A stretch of DNA of 64,000 nt from Eudromia elegans. Its lineage: Eukaryota > Chordata > Aves > Tinamiformes > Tinamidae. A model generated the notes under the pieces. The model worked only from the letters and a program-made list of their open reading frames with translations, did no database searches and was not told the DNA's origin. The DNA is taken from assembly GCA_003342815.1 (NCBI GenBank), contig PTEX01000472.1, positions 126,989 to 190,988 of the forward strand, in the 5' to 3' direction. The translations under genes and the position numbers were made by a program. Every line of letters begins with the position of its first letter. The first letter of the stretch is position 1. Shown piece by piece: positions 6,275-37,542 of this stretch.

Positions 6275-9200
6275 CTGCACAGAAGGACATACAGGGAGAG
6301 AGAAGTTAGTATTATTCTTTGGAGGCTCAATAGAAATGTCCAAGGAGCTTGTCAGACTCTAAAATCACTGAGGGTCTCAAAGTGGCATAGGATGTGATGT
6401 TGTTACTCTTGGGCATAGACAGCTGTAGATTTGGTTCAAATAATTGAAAATAATTAGCTCTAACACCTTTTACATTCACAGCTTTGCAGTTAGTCCTATC
6501 TAGATATGAGTGAAGCAGTCTGTGGTTTTTTGACCCAAATATAATATGCTCAGACCTCAGGAAACTTTCAATGGAGCAAAAGCCAGGGAGTCCTATTAGA
6601 GAGGCCATGCAGCCCAGAGGCTGGGCACAGCAGTGAGATGTGGGTCTTGTTCTTGTCCCACACTGTCTTGCTGTACCAAGGCTCTTGTTCTGTATGTGCG
6701 CCTCTTTCTGCTCCGTGTGAAACAGGTGACAGTGCTGACCCCCATGGATACTGTGAAGGCTTCTGGCCATGCACTGTTGAGAGCAGGTGCTGTTGCAGCT
6801 TTGGAGCTGAATGGTATAAACCCCTATGCCAAACTGCATGTAGTGTAGCTAGACTAAAAAGCATGTGAAAAGAGAGCCTTACTTAGCTTGTCACTCTCTG
6901 ACACTGAGCATAGAAAATCCTCATTACAGCAGAAAACATCAAGTATAATTTATTTTAAGCCTAAAATGCAACGAGTGTATTATTAAAGCTGAAGAGGACA
7001 GGAAAGTGCCTAGACTGCAAAAGGCCATTTAAAGAGATAAAGGGGAACTGCTTCCAGGACTGAGCAGGCAGAAGGTTACCAATGCTCTCTTGACAGTTCT
7101 TTGCAAATTGCAGCCCACAAGAACACATGTACACACAAAGAAGAAGAAAATGTGCACTGTTTTCTCTCCTCTTTTCATATCTTCAGTTTTCTCTAAAATT
7201 TCTCCTGCATCTTGACCAGTTCAAGACTCTCTTCAGGGCATTGTTATTGTCATTTGCTGATCATTATCCACAGATATTTCTTAGCTGCTTGCTTTGATGC
7301 AGGCAGGATGCAACTGAACGCATCCTAGATCACCTGGCTTTTTGCCTGCTGATAATGAGGACTTAGTTCACATATTAGTGAGGCCACCACATCCTCTTGA
7401 CATCTTCTGCCTATGCATCTTGTGCTATGCCTGTGTGGGTGACTGCTGCTTTAATTTGCAAATCTATTGAGTTTCCCAGAAGTACTTCAGCTTTAGCATT
7501 ATTGTAATTGAGGTGCATTCCGTCCCAACAGCCCTGAACAATCTTATTAGAGAGTAGCAAAACTATCATTCCAGCTAAGCAAGTTGAGGCCACGGACTTC
7601 CTTGAGAGGAGCATTAGAGAGTGGTTTCATTGTTACTACAAGTATCAGCCCATGATTCTCAGGAATTCCCACACTGATTGCATCTGATTTCGGCACCTTT
7701 CCCTCAGAACAGCTAGTGCCAGCTGCATCAGAGGAAGGTGTGAGAACCTTCAGGTGCAGATGTGGGAAGCTGTGATGGGCTCGAAAGGGGAAGACAAGCA
7801 GGAAGTGAGACAGGCTGCAGTCTGAATGGTGCCCATCCAGGACTTGCTGTTTAACTCATTTGCAAACTTCAGCCATGTAGCAGTGGGAAAGTACATGAAG
7901 ATCATGGCCCAGCTAGAATTCCTCTCCCAGAGTGTCTATGAAAAGGCAGAAAGAAAAAGGAGGCACTGAAATGTCTCTGATCAGAGATGCTGTAATGACA
8001 GGAACTTGTTCAGAAAGAAAAGACAGTGATGTTCATGCTCATGTGGCGAACTTTTCCAATTTGTTCATGTCATTGAGCATTGATATAAGTTTGATATGAA
8101 AAAGATGGATGGAGGCTTGAAGTTCTTTTGCTTTTGTATCTTAAGAACTCCAGTAAACCCTCTAGTCTTTGCAAGTATTTTGCCACATGAGCTGGTGTTA
8201 ATGGGGAAGCACATTTGGGAGGGATAGAGTTACTCGCTTCACAAAGACACTTCCCTAACAGGGCGGCAGCTTTACATACAGACCCACTGCAAGCTAATTA
8301 TTAGCCTCCAAAGCACTAACCATGTTTCTAGAATGACTCTATGAGGGACTTTCCAGAGAGGCCAACAGGGGTTAGTTCTGAGGTCGTGTCACTGCAGAAG
8401 CTTAGTGGAAGCTCAGCCCCTACACTACCTGCACCTGATGGCGCTATGGGACTGAAGTTTTGAAAAAAAAAAAATCTCAGATACTGTTTTAAAACCCCTT
8501 CATCTATTCCCTTGGGGATCCCAATGCTGCATGCATTACACATGAGGCTCACCTCACCCACCATGGCAGCACCTATGGAGGGATGAGCAGAACAGGTCTG
8601 GCCCGAAAGCCTTCTCCACACAGAGTAAACACTGGATGGTTCTGGTACACTGGCATTCCCCAGGAGAGATTCATCCTGCCACACTCTTAATGAGAATGCT
8701 ATGCCCAGGATAACATGTTGGGCCTTTTAGTTTAACTTTGTCCTGTGCTCTACAGACTTATGTAGCCCATTTATACCTTGAAATCTCCATTATGCACGAG
8801 GTAAAGGGGTTTGAAGAAGGCAGCAGGGTCTGGGATGCAAGCCATCTTCTTCCAAAAGCTGGAAGGAAAAAGAGATAAGCTTTGGAGTTAAACACACATC
8901 ACATGTCCAAACCTAGGCATCTCCAGGGAAAAGCAAGATGTTCTTGCCCATACAGGAACCAGAAGCCATGCTTTTCTGGCAGCTGTGCCTGGTTGCATGA
9001 AATGCGGACCACTGCATGTGAACACCCCCTCTTGATCAGGACAGAGCAGGAGCATTTGCTGTATCTCCCTTAAGGGCTCTTACCTCTGCTGCTTGGCCAG
9101 AAAGGCTGTGATTGAGACAGTGATCATTGCGGCAACACCAAACAGCAGCAGCCATCCTGTGTCTGCTCTCTGTGTCACTACTGGACAAAAAGACCTGGTC

Positions 9201-12200
9201 ATTCAGAATAACCCTGAGTTTCTATCCTAGTCAGTAAGAAAGAGATGGTAAGGAAAGATGATCAAGGTTTTCACCAGACTTTTCCCTAGGACATGGAGGC
9301 TTTCATCTGGAGCTCAGCCCTCCCCACACCTGATGGCAACACTAAACCCCAATGGCTGAACTACCTGTACCAGACCTTCCCCATCTCTCACAACTGTACC
9401 CTGCCTGACACTGCAAAAGGAAGCAGAAGGTGTGCTCCTGCTGTGGCAATCAAACATACAACCAGCCTCAAAAGCCTTTCTCTGTTGGGCCTTTCCATAA
9501 CATAGGCTATGCAGCACAGTGAGAAGAAATCCAGACATCACATATCAGCCCAAGCCAGGAATTCATGTATTCAGTAAGCAAGCCAAAGGACACACCTATC
9601 TTCATGAGGTTATTTAGCATTTGATCTAAGTAGTCAGTTTTGATTAGATTTCTGGAAGCATTCTCTGACTTTGGACCATGAGGGAGAAAGGGCATAATGT
9701 ACCATCAGGGCTAGTGGTCAGCATCAGTGGATGACTCCAGTCACTCCAAAATCCATGGTAGCCAGTGTCCTCTCGGGGTTTGGCTCGCACCTGGAACTCA
9801 TACTCAGTGTTTCCCTGGAGTTCCTGTGGCAGGATGACCAGTGTCCGCTTATCCTCATGGACAGCTTTAGTCTTCTGAGTCTGTGAACAATCAAACACCA
9901 AACAGGGCTGCAGCAATGATCCCACCTTGCCCTTGCTTACACTGCACAGTGAGGACCCTGCTAAGAAATCCCTGCTGCTTGCAAACCCTTCCTGTTGGCC
10001 ATGTTCCTGTGGGCCAATCTGCAGCCACACGTGGCCCCATGGGATATTTCTGTGCAGGATAGCATGGGAGCAAACAAGATATCAGTCTTCCCAACAAGAC
10101 TTAACACCACTCAAATAGCATCTGCTTCCCAGTATTCTCTTAGTTTTGTCTGCTTTCAGTTCAGACAAGCAAAGGGAAAACCTTTACAAATCTTGACAAT
10201 CCATCTTCCATGTCAGGAATCCTGCCCTCCTCTTTGCTGGTACATCCTTCTTAAAGGTAAACTGACATCTCACTTACCTCCCACGTGTCGCTGCTTTTCT
10301 TAAAACGCAGCTGATATTCCAGCTCCTCATTCAAAAAGTAGAAAGGAGAATTCTGGTAGATGGTTTTCCAAGAAATATTGTAACCCTCTGAGAACACAGC
10401 GGTGAGATTGAAAGGAGGCTGTGGTTTGACTGTGGGTAAAGACAGGGTGATTTATTCTTTGCAGTGTCATTGCACACACAGGAGGCAGCCTTGCATAGTA
10501 TCAGCAAGACACAGCAGGGTGCAGAGTTGCTGGGCAGAGGTGGCCCCTTCTGCAGGGGCTCCATCCCTGCCCCTGGATTGAGCAGTCCAGAGCACGGCAC
10601 AGAGCTGCACACATTGGGAGCACAGTGAAGTCAGGCCTGCATTTCCCTACATATGCCCAATGCCCGTCTCTGTACCCCCTTACCACCTAACAGAGCAGGA
10701 GAAGGTAGCAGGAGTGGCTGATATCACCTAACATCCTGCTCTGCTCATGCCACAAAAGGACTCCATGCAGTCAAGGTCACTCGTACCGTTAAGGAAATAC
10801 TCCTTAAAATACCAGAGGCATCAGGAAAAGCTGAAGCTAGAGGACTAGTGCCTAGAAAAGCAAACTTTTTATCTCCTGCAAGGTGTTTTCACAGGGTGCC
10901 TCTGTATGGCGACACCAGCATCCAGGAGAACACAAAGCACTACTACCAATCTGTGCACCAAACTACTCTTGACTCTGTCGGTGGAGATAAGGAACTTTTT
11001 TGAGCTATTCTGGCATTTGTCAAACAGGATAATGTTTCTCATATGAAATTTAATTTTCAGAATTTAGGGAGAAAAATAAATTTTCACATGCCTCTGTGGT
11101 GCCTGCTGACCTATCTGGCTTGGCTGCCTGCCTGGCTTATCTAGTGATTGAATACCTCTTTACCAAACCATCAGTATGATTGCACACATTCTCCCTGACA
11201 TGCAGACAAGATAGCTAAGAATTGCCTCAGAAAGGAGAAGTGTCTGTCTGGGACCCTTCATGGTCTCCTCATACAACAATATTGTATTTGTTCTGGTGTT
11301 CTATGCCTGGGACTCTTATGAGGACATAAGTGGTATTTCCATTTCCAAACATTTCCTCTTGTTCTTCTGGTTCTATCCAAGAACAAGCACTGTCACATTC
11401 TAGTCTAGATGTGAGACTGGCCTGAAGTAGAAATATATTACAGATAGCTCAATGTTGGAAGGGCCTCTGGAGACCATCTGGTCCAACCAGTGCTCCATGT
11501 GGGTCACTTGGAGCATGTTGCCCATGACCATGCCCAGATGCCTTTTGAGTATCTTCAAGAAAGGAGACTCCACAAACCCCTCGGACACTCTGCTCCAGTT
11601 TTCTGTTAACCTCACAGTAAAATGTTTTTTCATCATGTTCAGATGGACCTTCATTTCTTTCAGATTGTGCCCACTGTCTCTTGTTCTGTTTCTGGGCACC
11701 GCTTAGGAGAGTCTGGCTCCATCTCCTTATACCCTCCCTTAGACTCCTCTGAGCCTTCTCTTCACCTGTCTGAACAGTCTCAGCTCTCTCAGCTTTTCCA
11801 CTCCAGACACTTAGTCTTATTAGACCTTCACTGGCTAGCCCATATCACCAACTGCTTCATGAGGCATAAGGATTTTATCTAGTGGGCAAGCCAGTTTTAA
11901 ACTTAGCCTTGAGCATGAGCGTTTCTGTAGTTTGTAAGAGGAACAAGAAGACCAGTTCTCTCTACGGAAAGAACAAACAGTGAATCCATAGTCCCCATCC
12001 ATAGTTCCTGAACACTGAACATAGTGCCTGGACACTGAGTAAAGTCCCTGATGCTTTCTCCTTACCCAGTGTGTTGGATGGACATGAGTTCAGGCAGTAT
12101 TTCTCAAGCCCACCACTTTTGTACTTACTGTTCTCTCCCATATAAAAGCCTGTGGAAATCATGTGTTGCCTGTCAGCCGTCTCTGTAACATCCACCTGGA

Positions 12201-13067
12201 CTTTGATATCTGCCAGGAGCTCTGTCATGTCAACAGTGCACACATACTGTGTATGGCTGGTGTTCCTCATTGACTGCAGGAGACTGCAGGCAGCCACAGC
12301 ATTTTCTGGATCTTCTTCAGGAATCCTAAAACAAACAAACAAACTAGTTCACATCCACCACATGCTGCAGTTGGGCTAATATATTGCCGAACAAACTGGA
12401 AAAAAATCTATAAAGGAAAAGGATTAATGTATTCAAATAAAAAAGAATTAACCCATTCAGAGAGATCTTTTTCTTTCCATTTACCCAGCTTGCCATCTTT
12501 CTGAAAGTAATGGGAGATTGGAATGGAGGTGGTTGTCAAAAGGAAAGCTTCAAAAAACAGGTGCTCACCAGGGCTGCCATGCCAGGACTACACCCACCTC
12601 CTGGCTGGAGTGGAGCAGCTGCCCTATGGAGCTTGGATAAATCGTGTGAGCCCTGCCAATACGTGGGAGTAACAGTGCATGGTTAATAGCAGCAAAAAAC
12701 AAGGCGCTCTGTGACACGAGAGGAAACAGTGCAGAGGAGTCAGAGCCAGTGCAGCAACCAGGGTGAGCAGTGCTGCTGGCACAATCAAGCACCTTCTGTG
12801 AATGGGAAGGTCAATTGGCAACTGGAGCAAGAAGAACAAAGGAAAACCAGCACAGCAGCAAGCACAAGAACTCTGTCTAACAAAGAAGCAGGACATCAGT
12901 ATGCTAGGGCCACGTTAAGAATTTCTGCTGACTATACCTCACTCTTCCTACTGAGACATACCATGTTGCGGTGAGGTTGTATGAACCAGCACCCACATCA
13001 TTCTTCAGGATGCAGGACAGGGTCTGTACATAGTCCACAAAGCAAGTGAGATTTTCGCAATGTGTAG
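5366..13067 (-). CDS. IL21R: Interleukin-21 receptor, seven exons after the signal peptide
   Basis: Class I cytokine receptor for IL-21. It works with the common gamma chain and signals through JAK1/JAK3 to STAT3 and STAT1 in lymphoid cells. Coding exons in transcript order are 13067-12962, 12325-12129, 10429-10278, 9880-9703, 9180-9084, 8858-8777 and 6274-5366. All borders are AG/GT and the phases join exactly (2, 1, 2, 0, 2, 1, 0 leading bases), giving 572 residues after the leader; the human precursor is 538. Visible parts are two fibronectin-type domains with paired cysteines, a WSDWS box, one transmembrane helix, a Box1 (IPDPAAFF) and a tail. The tail keeps the family block IDSGFMDSDC and the STAT3 site YVKQ close to the C terminus. 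Identity rests on domain order plus matches such as NGDFK/KWVGA and IKPQPPFNLT. The signal-peptide exon was not found. The adjacent IL4R fits the conserved receptor pair. Confidence 0.93.
6275..8776 (-). other. IL21R last intron
   Basis: Intron of about 2.5 kb. Several frames of 70-170 codons cross it, such as 6327-6839 minus and 8328-8684 minus, but they show no domain or splice support. I see no repeat or RNA gene in it. Confidence 0.6.
8777..8858 (-). CDS. IL21R: IL21R exon: Box1 JAK-binding segment
   Basis: It encodes FWKKMACIPDPAAFFKPLY and ends NGDFK. The proline-rich IPDP is the Box1 motif used for JAK1 binding. The acceptor tract is CTTTTTCCTTCCAG. Confidence 0.93.
9084..9180 (-). 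CDS. IL21R: IL21R exon: transmembrane segment
   Basis: After VTQRADT it encodes a roughly 20-residue hydrophobic run (GWLLLFGVAAMITVSITAFL) and stops at AKQQ. The donor is GAG/GTAAGA. The phase joins both neighbours exactly. Confidence 0.92.
9703..9880 (-). CDS. IL21R: IL21R exon: second half of domain 2 with WSXWS
   Basis: It encodes TQKTKAVHEDKRTLVILP, YEFQVRAKP and GFWSDWSHP. The WSDWS signature of class I cytokine receptors lies at 9734-9748. The exon is phase 0 at its start and leaves one base at its end. Confidence 0.95.
10278..10429 (-). CDS. IL21R: IL21R exon: first half of domain 2
   Basis: It encodes KPQPPFNLTAVF, YNISWKTIY and LEYQLRFKK, the hinge and first strands of the membrane-proximal fibronectin domain. 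The acceptor is CCCACAG and the donor GAG/GTAAGT. The hinge wording is close to mammalian IL21R. Confidence 0.93.
10430..12128 (-). other. IL21R intron between domains 1 and 2
   Basis: About 1.7 kb of intron. Its only recognisable content is the CR1 fragment listed separately. Confidence 0.7.
11440..11860 (-). mobile_element. CR1 LINE 3' fragment
   Basis: Read on the plus strand it carries the antisense CR1 wording TTGGAAGGGCCTCTGGAGAC, followed by segments matching the CR1 reverse transcriptase end. The frame 11400-11699 minus reads HWLDQMVSRGP, a decayed CR1 tail. The element is 5' truncated and inactive, inside an IL21R intron. Confidence 0.8.
12129..12325 (-). CDS. IL21R: IL21R exon: second half of domain 1
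   Basis: It encodes IPEEDPENAVAACSLLQS through FYMGENI, with N-x-S/T sites and the second cysteine pair. Borders are TTTTAG before and ACA/GTAAGT after. At 197 bp it has one leading and one trailing base. Confidence 0.9.
12962..13067 (-). CDS. IL21R: IL21R exon: start of extracellular domain 1
   Basis: Acceptor CTACAG, donor ATG/GTATGT. It encodes HCENLTCFVDYVQTLSC and onward to LTATW, the first cysteine pair region of the mature receptor. It begins with two bases of a split codon, so a leader exon ending in a single-base overhang must exist upstream. The length of 106 bp fits the phases. Confidence 0.9.
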
Positions 13068-20639: not shown

Positions 20640-21110
20640 CGCTGTGCTCTTGAAAGTTGGTGCAGACTCATCTGCTTGGGGTCAGTCCCTGCCCATGGGG
20701 ATGCACCAGCATCAGGCCACGCTGCTGCATGCAGCATGTTCCGCGAGAGCCTCACGTTCCGCAAGAGCCTCACGTTCCGCGAGAGCCTCACCTGTGCCTG
20801 GCACCGCCACCCTGGCACGGCCGCCACACTCCCGCACTGCAGCCTGTGCGCCTGGTGCAGCTCCCTGGCCTCGCTCGCAGAAACCACACGAGCCACCTTC
20901 AGGGCTCTGACTGTGGAAGCGCTTTCAGAGCGAGCCTAGTGGCTCGCCCGCTGTGCTGCCTCCCTGTGGCAAGATGTAGAGGCGCTGACGCACTGCTCAC
21001 AAGCCCGCAGCGCCGGCACTGCTGCTGGCTCCTATGTCGCTCACAGAGACGTTCTGTGTCTCTGAGAAAAAAGGCGGCACGCAGATGCAGTACAGACACG
21101 GGTCACGAGA
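20640..21110. other. CpG-rich patch, possible cryptic promoter
   Basis: CpG dinucleotides are locally frequent compared with the surrounding DNA, and this patch contains the minisatellite. It could be a promoter-type island, perhaps for an upstream IL21R leader or a non-coding RNA. Overlapping open frames in several phases are the expected by-product of GC richness. I see no start or splice evidence. Confidence 0.3.
20737..20791. repeat. 18-bp minisatellite, three copies
   Basis: GTTCCGCGAGAGCCTCAC occurs three times in tandem. The middle copy differs by one base (GCAAGAG). The unit is a multiple of three, so every frame across it stays open, which produces repetitive peptides such as REPHVP. 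Confidence 0.88.
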
Positions 21111-26591: not shown

Positions 26592-28716
26592 TTATGTTAC
26601 CTTCATGTAATTATTCTCCTGAGCAAAGACTTGTAAAAGTTTCATGTTTTTCTCATTCTTTTTGTTTTTTTTCTTCAATAGTTCTGCTGCGTTTTTTTTA
26701 ATTAGAGGAGTCAGTTTGGATCCCTCATTGGGAACGGTACAAGAATAAAAAGCACAGGAACTACCCACAGAAAGAGGTGGTAAAACCTTGTCTATGACTA
26801 GCAGTTCCAGGGAATCTGCAGTTTTTCTTTTTAAGCTTTGCACTCTGCTGTCCAGTGACTCTTCTTTTAAGTTAGCAGCTGAGCCCCATCTTCTGATTGC
26901 CACATGCTGTATCACCTCTTTATTTTCCCCTGGACTTCCAGGTTTCTTCAAAAGGGTATGTGTGTGGCACTGGAAGTCAGCATTTAGGCTGTTACTGTTG
27001 CTCTCTTGCATTCCTTTACCAGTGCAGTCAAAACTGTCAGGTCTTGCCCCCTTTATAGTTTTTTCTCTTCTTTTAAAATCTTGAGACTTCAGCTCTAAGA
27101 AATGCAAAAGTTCTAAGACTCTGACGGTATTTTCATCTTTGTTGTCATTGGACACCTCATTAGAGTTGATAATCCAAATCCTATTATCATTGTTCTGCGA
27201 CACTTTCTCACTAGTGGCTAAACTTCGGACAACGCTACTATCAAAGTCCTGTAAAATCAAATACACATGATTGTCTGTCTTCTGGTCAGGTTCACAGATA
27301 CTGATATCTGGAGGTGCTTCTCTGAGGTTGTTGTACAGAATATTAAAAAAAGGTTCATATTGTGACTTACAGGTAACCTCACTGTCATTGTCAAAGTATG
27401 TACCACTGTATGCAACTGCAGTATCAAAAGACTGATAACTAGATCGTTGATGTCCAATAGGGCAAGAAGTTATATCTGCTTTATTCTGAGCATTTTGGTA
27501 TGTTATCTGTTTATGTATTTCCTCCTCTGGTAGCAAAGCTGAAACTCTGTCAATTGCATGTGTGGAGAGAAATGGAAAATCAGTATGATGTGAATAGGTG
27601 TTTTGAAAATCAAGCTCCATGCAGGGAGATCTGTAGCTGGCACAATATCTCTGATCACTACAGGGTTGATAAATTTCATCTCTGCAGCAAATTTTTTGAT
27701 TCTCTGAAAACTGTGTCAAAGGCAGCAAAGAACACACACTTTCAGAACACGGAGTAAGATTACTGCTAGCCATAGACTGAGACAGAAGAGTATCAAAGCT
27801 TTTGTATGCAGAATTATCAGTGCTCACGGATGGAGACATGAGGGTGTCAAAGCTCTTGTATACAGTGCTACTAGGTTCTGTGGATGCAGACACAAGGGTG
27901 TCAAAGCTCTTGTATGCAGAGCTGCAGGGCCCCATGGACACAGGTACAAGGATGTCAAAGCTCTTGTGTGTGGAGCTGATTATCCTATCTTTCATGATAT
28001 CAAAGGCTGGTCTATCTGGTGATTCCTGAATGAGGACAGACAAGTCATGCTGCATTTCAGAACTGCATGAAAAAAGACTTTTGTCAAGCATATCTAGAGA
28101 ATCTCTTGCCTCCACAGTAGCAGAATTGGTGTTGGAGCTTTGATAGCCAGATTCAAAGGATTCTTCTGATTGTGACCACTTCTTGCTGGCTGTACTGCAA
28201 CTGTAGTCACTTTGTGAGGCTTCAGAGAAAAGAGAGTCTGTGTGAAAAATACCACATAGTTGCTGATGCAGGTCTGCATTTGCTTTTGAATTTTGCTGTA
28301 ATGGGTTTTCTGACTCAAGTCTCTCAAAGATTTTATTCTCATCTGTGATGACGTCTGCATCTTTGTCTTGCATATTGTTTTCATCTGCCAGGAGCTTAAT
28401 GAACATATTAGCTAGTGTATCGTTATGTTCGATGTGTTCCCCGAAAGGACTTGCACTGCCCTCACAAGGCTCAAGCATAGTGACCTGGTTACAAGTTTCT
28501 TCCTGACTCTCTGCCTCAACACCTGATGAACATTCACATATTTCAAGACACTTTTCAACCAGAATTGTTTCAGGGGTTAAAACTGAACCACAACCTTTTG
28601 GGAACCAGTCACCAGACTTGCTGTGGCAACTGCAAGGTTTCTCAATGTTTGTTATGTTATCTTCTTCCTTGAAGCTTTGGCCTGACAAGCTTTGAGCCAG
28701 ACAGTTACTGCAACTT
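26592..28716 (-). CDS. IL4R: IL4R last coding exon: long cytoplasmic tail
   Basis: The exon begins SCSNCLAQSLSG after the acceptor CCCAAAACAG and ends NYMKVT with TAA at 26592-26594, giving about 707 residues. It holds the four-unit YKSFD array, then SYQSFDT and QYEPFFNIL, then FYSCTV in the region where the mammalian protein carries an ITIM-like tyrosine. A lysine-rich stretch (LLKKKNKKNEKNMK) comes just before the end. Bases 28717-28757 of the open frame are intron. Confidence 0.95.
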
Positions 28717-31700
28717 CTGTTTTGGGGAATAAAAATAAAAGTACAGTTAATGTTCATGTAGTAAAAAAGTATCTTGTGCTATTAAGCAGAGGTTTTTTTC
28801 CCCTCTTTATCTTACTTACATATGATTTTCCATATGACTCTGCTTTAAGTCGTGGAAAGGGAACTTAATTTCATCAATGTGGCAAAAAACTGAAAACTGT
28901 TAAAGACAGAGAGAAGATTTAGGCATTTTATTTAGTATCCCCTACAATAGCCAGTCAATAGCCGTTTCTATATATTCATTTTTTAACAAAGAAAAGCCAT
29001 CTTTTGCAAAAGCCTTAAATTACCTTGATATTTTTTACAACCAAATGGCTCTTGGCTGGATTTGGAATTTGATCCCACCATTCCTTCTTCACTCTGTAAG
29101 GCAAGAAAGAAAACTGTTTGCTTTGACTGCTTTTTCACTTGATCTCTATATATTTCCTTCCTCTCCTCTGTTTCTCCTAGCTGTCTGCATTTCAGGAGGT
29201 ACTTCTTCTGTGCATCTCCAAATGTTACTTTCATTAAACTAGTATAAATATGTTTATATATTTGGTGGTAGCTATGCTCTGCAATCACAGGCACATGTTC
29301 TTCTAATCTTGTATGAAAAGATGAGTGAAATAGATAGGATCACACTTTCATATACTAGCACTGAAAAAATGAAAAGAAATACAGGCATTTAACCATCATT
29401 TACTTAGATTCCTGCAATGATTGGGCTACTCAAGTGACAGATAACAGTAACTGTAGTTTGGTTTGGATGCCATTACAAGCCCATTTTAATAAAATTGACA
29501 GAGAATATTCAATTATTGTTTCAGAAAAAGGCTGAGTGCAACTGATTCGTGTTTATAAAAATATTGCTTGTAAAGTCTGAGATAAAGGTGCTAAAGAGAA
29601 ACAAACTATTAGGTTTCTATACTACATTCAACCAGTCTACATCAATACTGGCATCTGTATGAACTGCTACTCTGTAAAATTTTGAACAGTGTAATACATA
29701 CTTGGTAAAACTGAAATAACAAATCACAGCTACTGCCATTATCAGTACGCAGGATACAGGAACAACCATCTGCAGGACGTCTTCAGTTGTTACTTGGTAA
29801 TCTATTAAATAAACATATACATTTGTAGGTATATGTGTACCATGAATACTATATCTGTTTTTTTTCTTTTCACCTTAAGGCTAGACATAAAATAAAGACA
29901 AACATCAAAATACACATCTGTCAGTGGCAATGATGTGCAGTGTGTCTAAAAGACCAGTACGAGGACTACACTTGATTACTGTGCATGAATTAGGAGCTGG
30001 GAGGACCTAGCTGTGTCCTGAAGCCATTTGCCAGCTATCAGACACACAGCCATGCTCCTCATCCTCACTGTTAGTCTTCAGAGACTTTTCTAAAGCCTCA
30101 GCTCTTTCACAAATATAGGTATTGCTCAACTTCAAGATTAAATCTTATAGGCATTTTATACTCATTTGCAATTACGTCAACATTGCCCATAGTTAAACTA
30201 GCTCTTCTCCTTTCCAGGTGTCTACTTCCTGAAATACTTATAGAGAACAAATACATCCTCATTCAGTCTTTTCTTTTTTTTAATATCTCCACAATGCTTA
30301 ACCATCCAAGGTCCCTTCCTCAGTTTTTCCAGGAACTGTATTTTTGCATTTAGTCTCCTTTACAGACGGGTTCAGAATAGATTCAATGTGATGATGATAC
30401 GGATTATATCCTCCAAATTACAGATTCCATTACTCTCTTCTGGGAAACAAGAGGTAGCGGGGCATGCAAAATGTGGCTTATAAAAGTTTACTATCCTTTT
30501 ACCAAGCCATTATTTGTAACAACACTTACCATAATGAAATTCAATTGCCTCACTCCAGTCACTCCAGTAGGCTGGGTAGTCTGTATAGTTACACCGTATG
30601 CTTACAATGTAATCATAACCTTTCCTCAAAGAGCTTGCAATAATTTCAAAACTTTTTGTCCGATAATTAATTGATTTTCTAGAAACCTGAAAAGAAAGTG
30701 AAAAAGTTCATTCTGATAATTTTAGGAGATGAAGGGTTGATGGCAGCAACTAGATACTAGTACCCTTATGTGCTTTAATAGCCTTTCTCAAATGAGCAGA
30801 TGAATGACTGTATATACGATCTGCTGTGATAAGGTGTTTTGCTGTCATTAGTGGGTAACATTTGTGATACACCATTACGCACATTCTTCCCCTTTCAACA
30901 GAGCCTGGCCTTAAAGTGCTGTAGCACTCTGGATGGTGCCTAAAATGTCTCAAGGCACCACATCATGGGGTGTTTCAAGCTCCCTCACGTCCAGCCAAAG
31001 TCCACTGACAGAAATGTTGTATTTTGAATCTTTGCCCAGCCTACTGAGAGCTGCAGGCCAGTCAAGAGAGTAAAGTGACTCGTGGCAAGGATGTGCTCAG
31101 TTAGAACTGCCCTTGTTGGCCCTAACACTATTAATAACAAAATTATTACAAAGTTCTTCAAGATTTTTCATAGCATTTTTAATACCTGAAAGCTACAGAG
31201 ATGGAGAATAAAGAGACTATCTCTTACCTCTGTGGGGTCCTGCTTGCTCCAATATTTTACTTCATAGATCACTGGCTGTCCAGAGAGCATGGATGAAAGG
31301 GAATAGCTCTCTTCCCAGCTCAGATTGTAATTACCATTTTCAGCTTTCTCAATGGCAAGATTTTTGGGGGCCCTTGGCTTAACTGTATATTAAAAAATAC
31401 AATTAAGAGCATTGAAGTGGGAAAGTACTGATGAAGAGAAGCGGAGGGACAAATGTTCACCAGAGACCAGGGTCTTATCACAGTCAATGCACTTAGCCCT
31501 TTTTACTATGCTGTAGTACAAGGATATAAAGGACAAAATAGAGCAACTACAAGATGTTCATTAACAAACATTGGGTCTTCCAGATAGCTGAAAAATTTCA
31601 TGTTCTACTTTATAGTATACTGAATGCAGCTTCCAAAGTGGAAAAATGGGGTAATTCTGTGCCCTCAGAGTAGCATGTTGTGCCTTGGGGTAGACATGGA

Positions 31701-33474
31701 GCTTCTGACAACTTCTCAGATAGATTATTCCAGATAACTGTCTCTTCAACATTGATGCAGATTCCTGCTTATTCTGCTGATGATCAGAAGCAACCTCAAG
31801 TGTTCTGAAATGAACCAGATCACTGGTTCAGATGAATGCCTGCCTAAGACACTTGAATTATTTTTCTCAAGTGTTTGAGGTGACACGTTGCTCTAAACAA
31901 GCTAAGAGCTTGTAAAGACAAATACAAACTAAATCTATGCTTTGTTCTGAGAAAGTAAAGATTCCTAAACTTTTTATCATTGGTTGTTATAATCCAGTAC
32001 TACTTATCACGAAAATCATCAGAGGGATGCTTCAACTAGCATAAAAAATGTGACGATGATAAAGATAGCAGTAAATTGCAGCAGGGGTAGTCTAATTTCT
32101 TCCCAGAGACTAGAAGAGGAGTAACACCTTCCTTGGGTACCTCGACATCTCCTACAGCCACAAGCAAAATGCACTAAAGATATGGCTAAGCCCTCAAACT
32201 TGTGATTACTGGAAGCTGAGAGGGTATAGCTAGAGGAAGAATCACTCTTCTTGCCCTATTTCTTATTCTTTCCTTAAGAATCTGCTCCAGAATCATCAGG
32301 TTGCTAAGCCAAATTAACCTTTGGTTTGAGCTAGCAGAGCATTTTATTTTTTTAAAATTTCCAGTACGGAAAAATTCTTCAGATATCATTAATAAGTCAT
32401 CTAGGACTGAAAGACTGTAAGCAGAAGATATCCTGGTGACAAAGTAAATAGTTTCTTACCAACCAAGGCTGGTGTAACGCTGTAATTTCCTGTATTAGTC
32501 CCATTGAACTGCAGAGTTAGAATGTAGGTGAGGCCCAATACAAAAAAAGCAGGATATATTGTGCAAGTGCATGTGGAACTCTCTTTCCCATTCTCGGGGA
32601 TGCAAACATTACTTCTGAAAAACAGACAAAATGTGTCATATTTATATACTGTTACACATTCTGTTCTTCTAAACGTGCAATCAAGGTTCCCAGTGTGTAG
32701 AGCTAATACAACCCGAAATAAAAATACTTAGTTCCTAGAAATACTTAGCCAAATCTACACAGAACAGAATTACCATCTAAACCCTTAATTATCCCATCCA
32801 TTCCCAAAGACTCCTCAGCTATCTGTATTAGCTACTAGGGAAAAAACTAATGGAAAAACTAAGGATTTATCCCAAGAAGAAGAAGAGTTAACACCAAAAG
32901 CATCTTTTGTCATACTTCAGCCTCTGAAAGAGCAGATTAATATCTTTTTAGTATGGAAATAGTTTTACTACCTTGTACAAAGACAAAAAAACAAGGTTAC
33001 TTGGACGTCTCTGTGAAGAAATCATAGAGAAAGAAAGGGAGGAGACCAGATGCATCTTTTACACAAGCTACATACAGGTAAATCAGGTAAGTTTCTCCTG
33101 AAGAAAGTAAAAATTCTCCTGAAATGAAGGTTAGGTAAGCTTGTATGAGATCTAGCACTCCTACAAGTAATACTTGATTGCTCCTTTGTACTAAGAGTGT
33201 AAAAAGAGGCCTCCAGAAGAGTTCCTCTTTGCCTCAAGCTCCTGTGGCAGTGGGAGGAAATGAAAGCTGCTAATGACTATGGCATATTTCGATGTCCAAC
33301 AAGGATAACTGAATGTTTTACTAAACACTTACTGCTGAGATAAAATTCCAACCCTGTAACAGAGCAGGAATTCTTTGGAGCAGTTTGTCTGTGCAGGTAC
33401 CTTCCAGTGACAAACCAGTTTTTCAGCATAGTCAGTGAAGCATGCAAAGTCCTGCACATTTCCTGTAGCCATAA
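26592..33474 (-). CDS. IL4R: Interleukin-4 receptor alpha chain, eight exons after the signal peptide
   Basis: Receptor subunit for IL-4 and, paired with IL13RA1, for IL-13. It binds JAK1 and activates STAT6 at the plasma membrane. Coding exons in order are 33474-33333, 32614-32460, 31382-31228, 30686-30530, 29801-29702, 29093-29024, 28896-28820 and 28716-26592. All splice borders are AG/GT and phases join. The product is 992 residues plus a leader, longer than the 825-residue human protein, mainly because of a tail of about 755 residues. Seen in order: domain 1 with TNCSKEFLLCYRV, hinge VKPRAPKNLA, WSDWS box, transmembrane helix, Box1 WWDQIPNPAK, an acidic and serine-rich tail, four YKSFD-type units plus two related motifs, and the C terminus NYMKVT, close to the mammalian YMRVS end. 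The WWDQIPNPA and PRAP blocks identify IL4R rather than a paralogue. The leader exon was not located. Confidence 0.95.
27785..27975 (-). repeat. IL4R: Four 54-bp tandem units encoding YKSFD motifs in the IL4R tail
   Basis: Codons for the tyrosine position fall at 27966-27968 (CAC, His), 27912-27914, 27858-27860 and 27804-27806, each exactly 54 bp apart. The peptide units read HKSFDILV, YKSFDTLV, YKSFDTLM and YKSFDTLL, with serine-rich spacers between. These resemble the GYKxF STAT6-docking sites of mammalian IL4R. Nucleotide similarity between units shows they arose by in-frame tandem duplication. Confidence 0.93.
28820..28896 (-). CDS. IL4R: IL4R exon: short juxtamembrane exon
   Basis: It encodes FSVFCHIDEIKFPFHDLKQS and HMENH between Box1 and the long tail. 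The 77-bp length leaves two bases that join the single leading base of the last exon. Acceptor TTAACAG, donor TAT/GTAAGT. Confidence 0.88.
29024..29093 (-). CDS. IL4R: IL4R exon: Box1
   Basis: It encodes VKKEWWDQIPNPAKSHLVVK. WWDQIPNPA is essentially identical to the mammalian Box1 that binds JAK1, the strongest single identifier of this gene. Confidence 0.97.
29702..29801 (-). CDS. IL4R: IL4R exon: transmembrane segment
   Basis: After DYQVTTEDVLQ it encodes the helix MVVPVSCVLIMAVAVICYF and ends SFTK at the membrane. The donor is CAA/GTATGT. Confidence 0.92.
30530..30686 (-). CDS. IL4R: IL4R exon: second half of domain 2 with WSXWS
   Basis: It encodes VSRKSINYRTKSFEIIASSL, YIVSIRCNYTDYPAYWSDWS and EAIEFHY. 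The WSDWS codons lie at 30552-30566. The exon starts in phase 0 and leaves one base at the end. Confidence 0.95.
31228..31382 (-). CDS. IL4R: IL4R exon: hinge and first half of domain 2
   Basis: It encodes VKPRAPKNLAIEKAENGNYN, LSWEESY and VIYEVKYWSKQDPTE. VKPRAP is the characteristic IL4R hinge. Two leading bases complete the previous codon. Confidence 0.95.
32460..32614 (-). CDS. IL4R: IL4R exon: second half of domain 1
   Basis: It encodes SNVCIPENGKESSTCTC, YILTLQFNGTNTGNYSV and PALV. CIPEN matches the mammalian receptor. N-glycosylation sites are NGT and NYS. Confidence 0.92.
33333..33474 (-). CDS. IL4R: IL4R exon: first half of domain 1
   Basis: It encodes NVQDFACFTDYAEKLVCHW, then VPAQTNCSKEFLLCYRVG, the IL-4-binding domain. 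I take the acceptor CTCTCTCCCCAG at 33475; a second AG 12 bp downstream (exon start 33462) keeps the same phase. Upstream in frame there is a hydrophobic stretch but no ATG before a TGA, so the true start lies in an earlier exon. Confidence 0.85.
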
Positions 33475-34249
33475 CTGGGGAGAGAGAGCACACAGTAAGA
33501 ACCAGGAGAATCAAAAGATTTTGGTAGACAAAATGAAGCACTCAATTTCTTTCTGAATGATAGCATCATATTTAGTTCCCTCTTGTCCTGTACTGTCCAT
33601 TTTTGAAAAACAACCAAAACAAGAAAAAAAAACAAAAATAAAAACCCAAGAAAACCCAGAAAAGCAAGTTAAAGATTCTTTAAAACTTCTGCAATATTAT
33701 AACAGTCACATGGCTCACTTTTTTTTTTATAAGAACTATTTGTTACTGTTGCTTATATTTGTATTGCTATTTATATTTTTACTGTTCATTTTTATTTTTT
33801 CACCTGAAAATGCACTTTTTAAAAGAACTACTAAATATTAAGCCCTTTAAAGATGGACTTCACCATTTTTTCAGTGTGTTAATGATCTTATGCTTTCAAG
33901 ACCTCTTGAAATATATGAAGCTCTTCCTGCTGTGCTGTTATGATAACTTGCAACTTTATCTTGCCTTTTACTGTCCTTATGTCTTTCCTGAATTGTAAGC
34001 TATTCCTTGTATTCTTTTCTTGTGATTTTTTTTTTCCTTTTCTATCTCTGGAATGATATTTTTTGAAATCTCAGATATTTACAAATTTCCTTTTGAAAAC
34101 ACACGTGGTATAAAGTTTGCTTTCAGTTCATGTAGTTTAAAAAGAGAACTGAAATAATAGACTTTTTTCATCCTCAGCAAGAATAACGTGATGAAGAAAC
34201 TTGAAGTGTGGTAACATGTGAAAGTAAGACTTGATAAGATAATTCACAG

Positions 34250-34826
34250 AAAATCTGGAACCATCTCCAGCAGGTTGAGGGAGGTGATTCTGCCCCTCTA
34301 CTCAGCCCTGGTGAGGCCACACCTCGAGTACTGTGCACAGTTCTGGGCTCCACAGTGCAGGAGGGACGTGGAGCTGCTAGAGAGAGTCCAGCGCAGGGCC
34401 ACAAAGATGATTAGGGGCCTGGAACATCCGCCCTATGAGCAAAGGCTGAGAGAGCTGGGCCTCTTCAGCCTGCAGAAGAGAAGACTGAGAGGGGACCTGA
34501 TTAATGTATATAAATATCTCAGGAAAGGGAGTGAGGAGGAGGGGGCTGGCCTCTTCTCAGGGGTGGTCAGTGACAGAGGCCACAAATTGAGGCACCAAAA
34601 GTTCCACAGGAACTTGAGAAAGAATTTCTTAACAGTGAGGGTGACAGAGCACTGGAACAGGCTGCCCAGAGAGGTGGTAGAGTCTCCTTCTCTGGAGATC
34701 TTCCAAACCTGCCTGGACATTACCCTGTGCCACATGCTCTAGGAGACCCTGCGTGTGCAGGGGGGTTGGACTAGATGACCTCTACAGGTCCCTTCCAACC
34801 CTAGCCATTCTATGATTCTATGATCT
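34250..34826 (+). mobile_element. CR1 LINE 3' end with reverse transcriptase C-terminus
   Basis: The frame 34218-34742 encodes [50 protein letters not shown] and [14 protein letters not shown], the conserved end of CR1 ORF2. The 3' end has GGTTGGACTAGATGACCTCT, CCCTTCCAACCCTAGCCATT and the tandem octamer ATTCTATG. The element is 5' truncated, as usual, but its open frame is intact over 170 codons, so it is fairly young. Confidence 0.95.
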
Positions 34827-37542
34827 AGATGAAATGAATCAGTCAAAGTGCACTTATAATATTTGATCATTCTCATTAATTTAAATTGCAAAATTCCCTC
34901 CAATATCACCAGCAGATTGTTCTGAACTCAAGAGCAATTAAGGAAATAGCTATTAAACTTTTTTCCTTCCCCTCTTTCAGGCATTTTTTTAACCACTTTT
35001 TTTTTTAAACTTTTCTTAAAAATAAAGCAGGCTTATGTACCTACTTAAAACCCATGCAAAGCAAAATACAAACTGCTTTTCCAGAGAATAAAGGCATGTA
35101 TCTGGAAGATATAAAATTTTATAAATCTAGCTTCTTTCTATAATGAAATATCAGAAAAGATAAGGAAAAAGACATCATATTCAGCTTTCAGTGACCTTCA
35201 GAAAACAACCATTAAGTATCTAGCATTAACATTTACATTAACTTAACATAAATATACATCCTGCCAGACAGAAAGATGTGGTTTCCTGTGCGTTCATCAC
35301 TGCATATCAGCCGTCTGCCCTTGTGCAAGCAACAGCCACCATATGAAACACCTTATGGTGAGTGCTTGCAACATTTGTTCCAATCTAGTCAACTAAATTT
35401 TCTAGATTAGTAACTCCACACACCTGGGAGAACGCATGCTGACAGCAGCCTTTTGACTATAGGTTTGTAAAGCCACTCTTCTTTTTATGAGCACAGCTCC
35501 TGGTCTACTGCTTATGATTCCTTTCTGCCTCTCACAGCAAACAGCAGCAATTATGAAAATAAGCAAATGAGAGACAAGTGGGCTTTCCACCTTACAGAAT
35601 GCTTACAGAGATGTCTCTGAATCATTGCAGAGACTTCTGTTTGCAGCAAAGTATCCAAAATAGATAGATCATGGAGATGCTTCTTACTAATTCCTACTTC
35701 TTACTGCAATATGGAAAAGGTCAGTAAAAAGAGAAGATCTGAGATTTTATTCTAATATATGCACATCTCTGACACATGGTTACACAGTTTGTTCAAGACA
35801 ATTAATTTTAGTAGCAATGTTGTGTACTAGTTATTCCTAATCATAGTAAAATACTGTAGATAATTTCAGTATAATAACATAAAACATTAACAAATGTACT
35901 TTCATTTGTTGCATATTGAAAGAAAAGGATCCACAGAGTATGCAGTGCAGAACTCGAGATTCTTGTCATCGCTGACTCTGGTCAGGTTCAGCAGGACAAA
36001 CTGTGCTGCAATTCTGCCAACAGAAAACATTGCACACTAACATCAGTGTTCCAGCTGAAGGATGGCTGTAGCTGTTCATAGCACAGTGCTAGATGTCAGG
36101 ATTAAGATCCCTTGTAGTGCCTGATCCTCCTAAAGTTTGCTTAAAGAGCAGTGTCAACTGTAGAAGAATAAGGGTAATACACTAGTAGGAAGATAAGAAA
36201 TTAACTGACAACATGTCACCAAGGTCATATGGCTCAACTGAGATAACTGAAAGAATGTAAGAATGAGGTGCCTGAGCTGATGTCTAAAGTTTTTCCACAG
36301 TCCTATGACCATTACCCTAGATACTGAGAATTAACAATCTCCTATAAGAGTTGAGCTATGCAAAGAATACAAACAAAATGCAAATTTATTAAAACAATAA
36401 TTAAAATAGAAGTTGTAAAATATGTAGTTATGAAACCATCCAGCAGAATTTTAAAAAGTTATGCAGCTTTTATATATTACAATTATTGAAGCATAGTGAA
36501 GTTCAGTAAGGAAACTGAGGCCAGATGAAATTATCCATTTAAGACTTAAACACTTCTTTTTCTCTAGGATTTTACTGAAGACACAAAGCAGTCGAGTGCT
36601 AGAAGATGCTATTTGGGATTAGATGTAGCTACCAGCTTGCACATCACTAGAGATGAATGTGTCACAGCTAGGTAAATTTGTATGTAATGTCATACTCACT
36701 AACATAGGATGTCTGTGACTTGCAATCAGCATAAAGAGGGCTAAACCTTGTTTTGAAACACATAATCTGTCAGCAGAATGCTTTTATCCCTTCCTATATT
36801 TTCTAGTCTCCAGGTCTGGATGTGGTGCTCATGCTTGCTACCTGTGTGCTGATTCAAGAACAGTTCCACAATATTTGCTGTCAATTAACATAAGCACATT
36901 GTAGACAAGAGAAACGACCCTTTCCAGATGAGTAAGGTACAGGCAGAGAAGTAACGTTTTTATGAAGAAGTCCATGCCATTTTTTGATGAACTTATCTAT
37001 ATAAATCATAGCAAAGTATAGGGACAGAGTCTTAATTTCCAACACATTTAAAATAACTAGCACTTCTTTTACAGTGCATCTTGACTCCAGTGGTAACCTC
37101 AGCCCAAAGCCTCAGTATCCAAGCTGCTGCCTTTTATGATGCTGCATTTCTTCCATTCTCACATACCTTGATTTGTCATTCTTTAAAATAAGCTTCTACA
37201 GATTAAATACCAAAAATTTCAACCTTAGAAGTTAAGTGATAACAATAACATGAGCACAAATAAACTAGAACAGAAACTGTTTTGTGACCTTACTGGAAGC
37301 AGTTACTGATCATGTAGCATATTGATCATAAAGGCCCTATTTTAACTACAAGTTTCTCATGAACATTCAGGAAAACTGTTACTAGACAGTTGAGTTTTTT
37401 GCGTTTGGAAGTCGATGAAATGTAATTAAGCATACTAATCAAATTTTTGCAAAGAAAAATACAAATGCCTTTCTGTAGTTCAGAAAACAAAAGAAAGAAA
37501 AACAAAGGGTAAACTGCTCCGGCAAACAAAATCTTTCTTCTT

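Follow-up and report, generated by a model that had tools for sequence, protein, structure and literature searches.

A variable tandem array of candidate tyrosine-docking units in the IL4R tail of a tinamou and other sauropsids

IL4R and its tail array in the tinamou window

The DNA analyzed here, referred to as the window, is a 64,000-nucleotide stretch of contig PTEX01000472.1 from the tinamou Eudromia elegans, and its minus strand carries the IL4R gene. Using tblastn, ectodomain, membrane and tail exons were recovered in order, and the tail was found to match annotated avian IL4R. This exon-by-exon match confirms the gene assignment made in a preliminary description of the sequence. The Eudromia elegans IL4R record (P0004) matched the window at 99.8% over its residues 244-687 by tblastn, and in a protein search the tail open reading frame was 100% identical to the same record with 61% of the query covered. 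The Pfam domain PF09238 is present in the P0004 row. The tail reading frame and two shorter reading frames returned nothing over the Pfam cut-offs, and a comparison with solved structures gave no sequence match to the tail, which is expected to be disordered. The parts of the gene are as follows.

26598..35969, minus strand: IL4R coding region (tblastn with the Dromaius P0001, Struthio P0003 and Eudromia P0004 proteins)
Near 35969-35895, 33475-33338, 32625-32455, 31491-31180, 30689-30531, 29802-29701, 29107-29021, 28899-28819 and 28715-26598, minus strand: IL4R exon matches (tblastn)
26598..28715, minus strand: last coding exon, with most of the cytoplasmic tail (tblastn with Struthio P0003 and Dromaius P0001)
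26592-28778, minus strand: open reading frame of the tail

Downstream of IL4R and on the same strand, IL21R-like exon matches were obtained at 8765-13056 with an Apus IL21R model (P0109), whose alignment takes in the IL4R exons of the window as well as the IL21R-like ones. Two Apus apus models named interleukin-21 receptor, P0031 and P0109, contain IL4R sequence and are perhaps fused or read-through models of neighboring genes. Other repeats in the window include an 18-bp GC-rich repeat at 20738-20791 (three copies, 94% matches) and a perfect 32-bp tandem repeat at 625-690 (2.1 copies).

Within the last IL4R exon, four tandem units of 18 residues (54 bp) read through the open frame at 27771-27986 on the minus strand. 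They are listed here together with other tyrosines of the tail.

28143-28145, minus strand: tyrosine of ESGYQSSNT, in the block ESFESGYQSSNT upstream of the array, a conserved sauropsid motif
27933..27986, minus strand: array unit 1, RIISSTHKSFDILVPVSM, with His at the tyrosine position (CAC, 27966-27968), reading STHKSFD
27879..27932, minus strand: array unit 2, GPCSSAYKSFDTLVSAST, Tyr at 27912-27914
27825..27878, minus strand: array unit 3, EPSSTVYKSFDTLMSPSV, Tyr at 27858-27860
27771..27824, minus strand: array unit 4, STDNSAYKSFDTLLSQSM, Tyr at 27804-27806
27435-27437, minus strand: tyrosine of SSYQSFDTAV, 123 residues past the last unit's tyrosine, at the place of GYQPF in other sauropsids
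27357-27359, minus strand: tyrosine of SQYEPFFNIL, a second downstream YxPF site, 149 residues past the last unit's tyrosine

Tandem Repeats Finder called the array at 27779-27967 (period 54, 3.5 copies, 75% matches). The lagged self-identity of the exon peaked at lag 54 with a value of 0.741 over 135 bp, far above the maximum of 0.459 in 40 codon-shuffled exons, which rules out a chance repeat. DNA identity between the tinamou units ranges from 32 to 41 of 54 positions. The preliminary description had therefore been right to see an in-frame array of four 18-residue units, which is slightly wider than the 27785-27975 it reported. Its statement that the tyrosines lie exactly 54 bp apart holds for units 2-4 and has to be dropped for unit 1. 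Units 2, 3 and 4 also have Lys at +1 and Phe at +3 after the tyrosine, a pattern from which unit 1 departs through its His. The Gly at -1 of the GYKxF motif is replaced by Ala, Val and Ala in units 2-4, respectively.

Of 110 sauropsid rows, 97 have ESGY[QR][SR] upstream of the array, E[SP]GY[QR]S was found in 0 of the 119 mammal rows listed, and the ESFESGYQSSNT block could possibly be a further sauropsid docking tyrosine or a phosphodegron. A widely conserved tyrosine near the C-terminus (26607-26609) lies in NYMKVT in the tinamou; NCYMKVA is present in 41 of 110 sauropsid rows.

Copy number and turnover of the array across amniotes

Three protein searches yielded 228 distinct rows, 109 from sauropsids and 119 from mammals, with the best 120 of 199 matches taken from the last search. 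The mammal rows include isoforms of one species, and totals of 92, 107, 110, 112 and 119 refer throughout to rows rather than species. Units were counted by chaining a unit profile at 18-residue steps, using one row for each named bird species. The profile was trained on sauropsid units, including those of the window and some from isoform or same-species duplicate rows.

The 80 named bird species were found to have 3 to 12 units (3 units in 1 species, 4 in 28, 5 in 14, 6 in 17, 7 in 9, 8 in 6, 9 in 1, 10 in 2, 11 in 1 and 12 in 1), counts that are approximate in that gene models or assemblies may drop or collapse repeats. The 7 turtles have 2 to 4 units, and the crocodilians have 11 (Crocodylus), 16 (Alligator) and 17 (Gavialis), with the Crocodylus model exiting the array after its 11 units and joining an odd end. 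The tuatara Sphenodon has 15 units in a model that ends soon after the last of them. One step of a length other than 18 residues occurs in each of two rows, Carettochelys (13) and Alligator (15). The likely first unit of the ostrich, QISHSAHESVDSRMFSSM, has His and fell below the cut-off; when it is counted the ostrich has 6 units, the value used in the tree described below. No unit was found in the short bird rows P0104 and P0105 or in the Apus IL21R model P0109. Among the mammal matches listed, two units were found in 0 of 119 rows, one in 13, and none above the cut-off in 106. The array is thus real and widespread in the sauropsids sampled. A feature restricted to the tinamou is ruled out by the arrays of the 80 birds, the turtles, the crocodilians and the tuatara. 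The named rows among the matches listed are without marsupials, monotremes, squamates and amphibians, so a gain in sauropsids and a loss in mammals would look alike.

A gene tree of 90 species, from which the array had been left out, requires a minimum of 48 changes in unit number; the figure is rough, since it comes from a single, quickly built tree that leaves 25 of 87 inner branches open and carries a long-branch warning. All 17 oscine passerines in the tree have four units. The suggestion in the preliminary description that copy number may vary between species is therefore well founded: sauropsids range from 2 to 17 units and the mammals listed show no array, rather than all amniotes sharing one number. 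Among the open-access papers listed, no title or abstract opening describes an array in bird or reptile IL4R; subscription journals lie mostly outside this scope. Resequencing of chicken IL4R has revealed many fast-changing sites, according to the accessible part of that study (PMC3224688), and the words "repeat" and "tyrosine" are absent from its main text to the same extent.

Homogenization was measured on the proteins of the 37 birds with at least six units. Mean identity between middle units was 0.835 within species and 0.743 between species, and the maximum of 1000 label shuffles, which leave species relatedness in place, was 0.766. End units were compared with units at the same place in other species (first 0.678, penultimate 0.755, last 0.814), "first" units being taken as equivalent across species from flanking sequence, and proved less like the middle units within the same species (0.482, 0.693 and 0.695, respectively). 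The second unit behaved in the opposite way, with 0.751 to the same place elsewhere and 0.813 to its own middle units. In 20 of 80 birds, two or more of the 18-residue units are identical, and the number of identical units reaches 7 in Tyto, 7 in Apus and 6 in Gavialis. For example, Tyto (P0007), Apus (P0031) and Chaetura (P0051) have seven, seven and four identical AYKSC units, respectively, with Cys at +3, and these variant units have spread inside the owl and swift arrays. Taken together, the comparisons give the picture of an array that is renewed from its middle, and the greater likeness of middle units within species is what unequal exchange or gene conversion would predict.

Fast turnover of copy number and homogenized units are also what would be expected of a neutral minisatellite in a disordered tail, in which unequal exchange alters copy number and signaling is unaffected. 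The first unit fits this reading as well, since it is without a tyrosine in 56 of 80 birds; a tyrosine was scored in the other 24 (23 when the ostrich QISHSAHESVDSRMFSSM is counted), and the replacing residues are His (26), Asp (15), Gln (5), Arg (3), Cys (3), Asn (2), Leu (1) and Pro (1). Later units, however, tell against it. Among birds the tyrosine is retained in 364 of 370 of them (365 of 371 with the ostrich QISHSAHESVDSRMFSSM counted), although homogenization and shared ancestry partly inflate this conservation, and in the other sauropsids it is retained in 69 of 70 later units and in 11 of 11 first units. Furthermore, the last unit has Phe at +3 in 91 of 92 bird rows, and dN is below dS in the five tinamou unit pairs with a computable dS (the sixth pair gave no dS), a weak indication given how short the units are. 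Neutrality is therefore regarded as improbable. Bird arrays contain 2 to 11 tyrosines. The tree implies 21 or more changes of the first-unit residue, and 8 or more between tyrosine and another residue, counts as rough as those for unit number.

The mammalian counterpart of the unit and the fate of NPxY

In human IL4R alpha, Y497 is described as the residue that contacts IRS2 and Shc, with STAT6 docking at Y575, Y603 and Y631 (PMC8442009). Y497, the mammalian relative of the unit according to the scans below, is missing from these listed STAT6 sites. The I4R consensus contains NPXYXSXSD (PMC5962649), and the Tyr631 site was the template for a STAT6 inhibitor (PMC4659681).

When the sauropsid unit profile was run along mammal tails, its top window coincided with the I4R site around human Y497 in 96 of the 112 listed rows with a recognized membrane-proximal motif, with a GYxxF site in 14 and with another place in 2 (7 further rows are without the motif). 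Top scores averaged 13.4 bits, and none of 200 shuffled tails derived from the first 40 mammal rows scored above 4.4. In the reverse direction, 72 distinct I4R sites of mammals were combined into a profile, and this peaked within the array for 107 of 107 sauropsid rows. The best unit scored 7.7 on average and the best non-unit window -8.9 (maximum 1.4), with the reservation that the scan takes the best window of each tail and that tails with many units get more chances. The mean over a row's units exceeded the best non-unit window in 100 of the 107 rows; in only 73 did the best unit rise above 4.9, the highest score among 321 shuffled tails, and best-unit scores went down to -3.2. The top match of the window to the I4R profile is unit 4, at 26.5 bits. 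An alignment of whole mammal and turtle/bird profiles covered the ectodomain and proximal tail and stopped short of the array, so that homology of the units rests on the profile scans. These scans point to the I4R element around human Y497 as the best counterpart of the array, rather than to the mammalian STAT6 sites.

The preliminary description had taken the units to be duplicates of the GYKxF sites that dock STAT6 in mammals, a derivation that does not agree with the reciprocal scans. In a fuller form of this idea, expanded GYKxF sites would act as a STAT6 dose amplifier in all sauropsids. AYKSF does share Y, K and F with GYKxF, and the Y603 profile has its top match in array units in 62 of 107 sauropsid rows. 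However, the profile scans in both directions favor I4R, the top match of the Y575 profile lies beyond the array on its downstream side in 102 of 107 rows, and one account describes the STAT6 docking motifs of mammals as independent from I4R (PMC5962649). The +3 position adds a further difficulty. The 370 later bird units have Phe there in 269 and Cys in 85, the latter mostly in mid-array (96 of 232 middle units in 92 bird rows), and these Cys units, like the seven AYKSC units of Tyto and of Apus, would be a poor fit for STAT6. Should STAT6 require Phe at +3, as the GYKxF pattern suggests, a good many middle units would be weak docking sites or would have other partners. Residue -1 of the later bird units is Ala in 336 and Gly in 20. 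An amplifier built from GYKxF sites is thus considered unlikely, and a mixed origin could still apply, in that the Y603 and Y631 profiles often match array units too (62 and 38 of 107 rows, the rest peaking elsewhere). As for the downstream tyrosines, that of SSYQSFDTAV (27435-27437) is likely the tinamou counterpart of mammalian Y575; the Y575 profile scores only -8.0 there. In other sauropsids, most downstream matches of this profile fall at what is taken to be the GYQPF site. At least one STAT6 site of the mammalian type thus seems to persist in sauropsids outside the array.

The I4R ancestry suggested by the profile scans raises the alternative that the array amplifies PTB docking of IRS and Shc in all sauropsids. 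Crocodilian tails are in keeping with this, since NPxY occurs 6 times in Alligator, 8 times in Crocodylus and 13 times in Gavialis; it occurs twice in Sphenodon. On the other hand, 75 of 80 bird tails, chicken among them, and 7 of 7 turtle tails have no NPxY, nor does the tail in the window, which has the sequence counterpart of the Y497 region and lacks the NPxY core. PTB docking throughout sauropsids is consequently very doubtful, and in birds the same absence makes a PTB route unlikely and lends some weight to STAT6. Only Sarcoramphus, Oxyura, Anas, Cairina and Aix have one NPxY among the birds, whereas mammals have it once in 106 of the 119 rows listed and lack it in 13. An NP pair was found in the first unit of 30 of 80 bird arrays and in 0 of 370 later units, and the tyrosine is gone from 25 of the 30 first units with NP. 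Comparison across species thus indicates that birds have mostly lost the NPxY core of the site that the array seems to match. This makes the array more interesting than first described: it matches another docking site, and most birds have lost the core of that site.

Proposed function and relation to known systems

The explanation that we favor, and hold to be probable, is that the array is a tandem expansion of an I4R phosphotyrosine-docking element, present in all four sauropsid groups sampled, which would serve as a multivalent docking strip. After binding of IL-4 or IL-13, JAKs bound to the receptor would phosphorylate several units together, and the phosphorylated units would form a docking strip for SH2 or PTB proteins, with a strength that scales with how many units are live. 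Crocodilian units, and some of those in the tuatara, keep NPxY and could still hold the PTB domains of IRS or Shc, a reading that this retention makes plausible for crocodilians. Birds would have shed the PTB core and would now present (A/G/V)-pY-(K/R)-S-F/C, a sequence similar to the GYKxF site for STAT6. The present partner in birds is most likely STAT6 or another SH2 protein; this reading, with STAT6 first, is the more plausible one because NPxY is mostly gone while K/R and S, and in most units F, are still there. Judging from its resemblance to that site, AYKSFD might dock STAT6. For the tinamou, the model predicts three live units and a dead unit 1.

More tentatively, and with somewhat less than even confidence, the observations can be read as a two-step history. 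Sauropsids would have turned a single insulin-pathway site into a fast-evolving multivalent strip, and birds would then have switched partner, with NPxY shed, the only NP-bearing unit mostly deprived of its tyrosine, and 2-11 SH2-type tyrosines left.

IL4R alpha is the shared signaling chain of type 2 immunity. A number of candidate docking tyrosines that varies between species, with at least 48 changes by gene-model counts, would provide a natural dose series for relating site number to response. The missing NPxY core in 75 of 80 bird tails, including that of chicken, predicts that the mammalian-type IRS arm is absent or rerouted in most birds. If the partner switch is true, the balance of STAT6 versus IRS/PI3K signaling after IL-4 or IL-13 would differ in kind between birds, crocodilians and mammals, with copy number tuning it.

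Among known systems, the mammalian I4R motif, which docks the PTB domains of IRS1/2 and Shc, is like the sauropsid unit in its position upstream of a Y575-type site, in the reciprocal best profile match and in a shared (P)AY(K/R)SF core. It differs in being single in the mammal rows listed, whereas the sauropsid unit is tandemly repeated, and in having NPxY in 106 of those 119 rows, compared with none in 75 of 80 bird tails. With the GYKxF STAT6 sites (Y575, Y603 and Y631) the array shares the pY-K-x-F pattern and the presence of several copies per receptor. The mammalian sites, however, are spaced by 24 to 28 residues (12 rows, one with only two sites) rather than 18, and the Y575 profile points downstream of the sauropsid array. 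Coding minisatellites under concerted evolution have an in-frame unit, a homogenized middle, distinct ends and quick changes in copy number. The array has all four of these features; unlike a typical coding minisatellite, its unit is a putative phosphotyrosine-docking element in which the tyrosine is kept in the later units.
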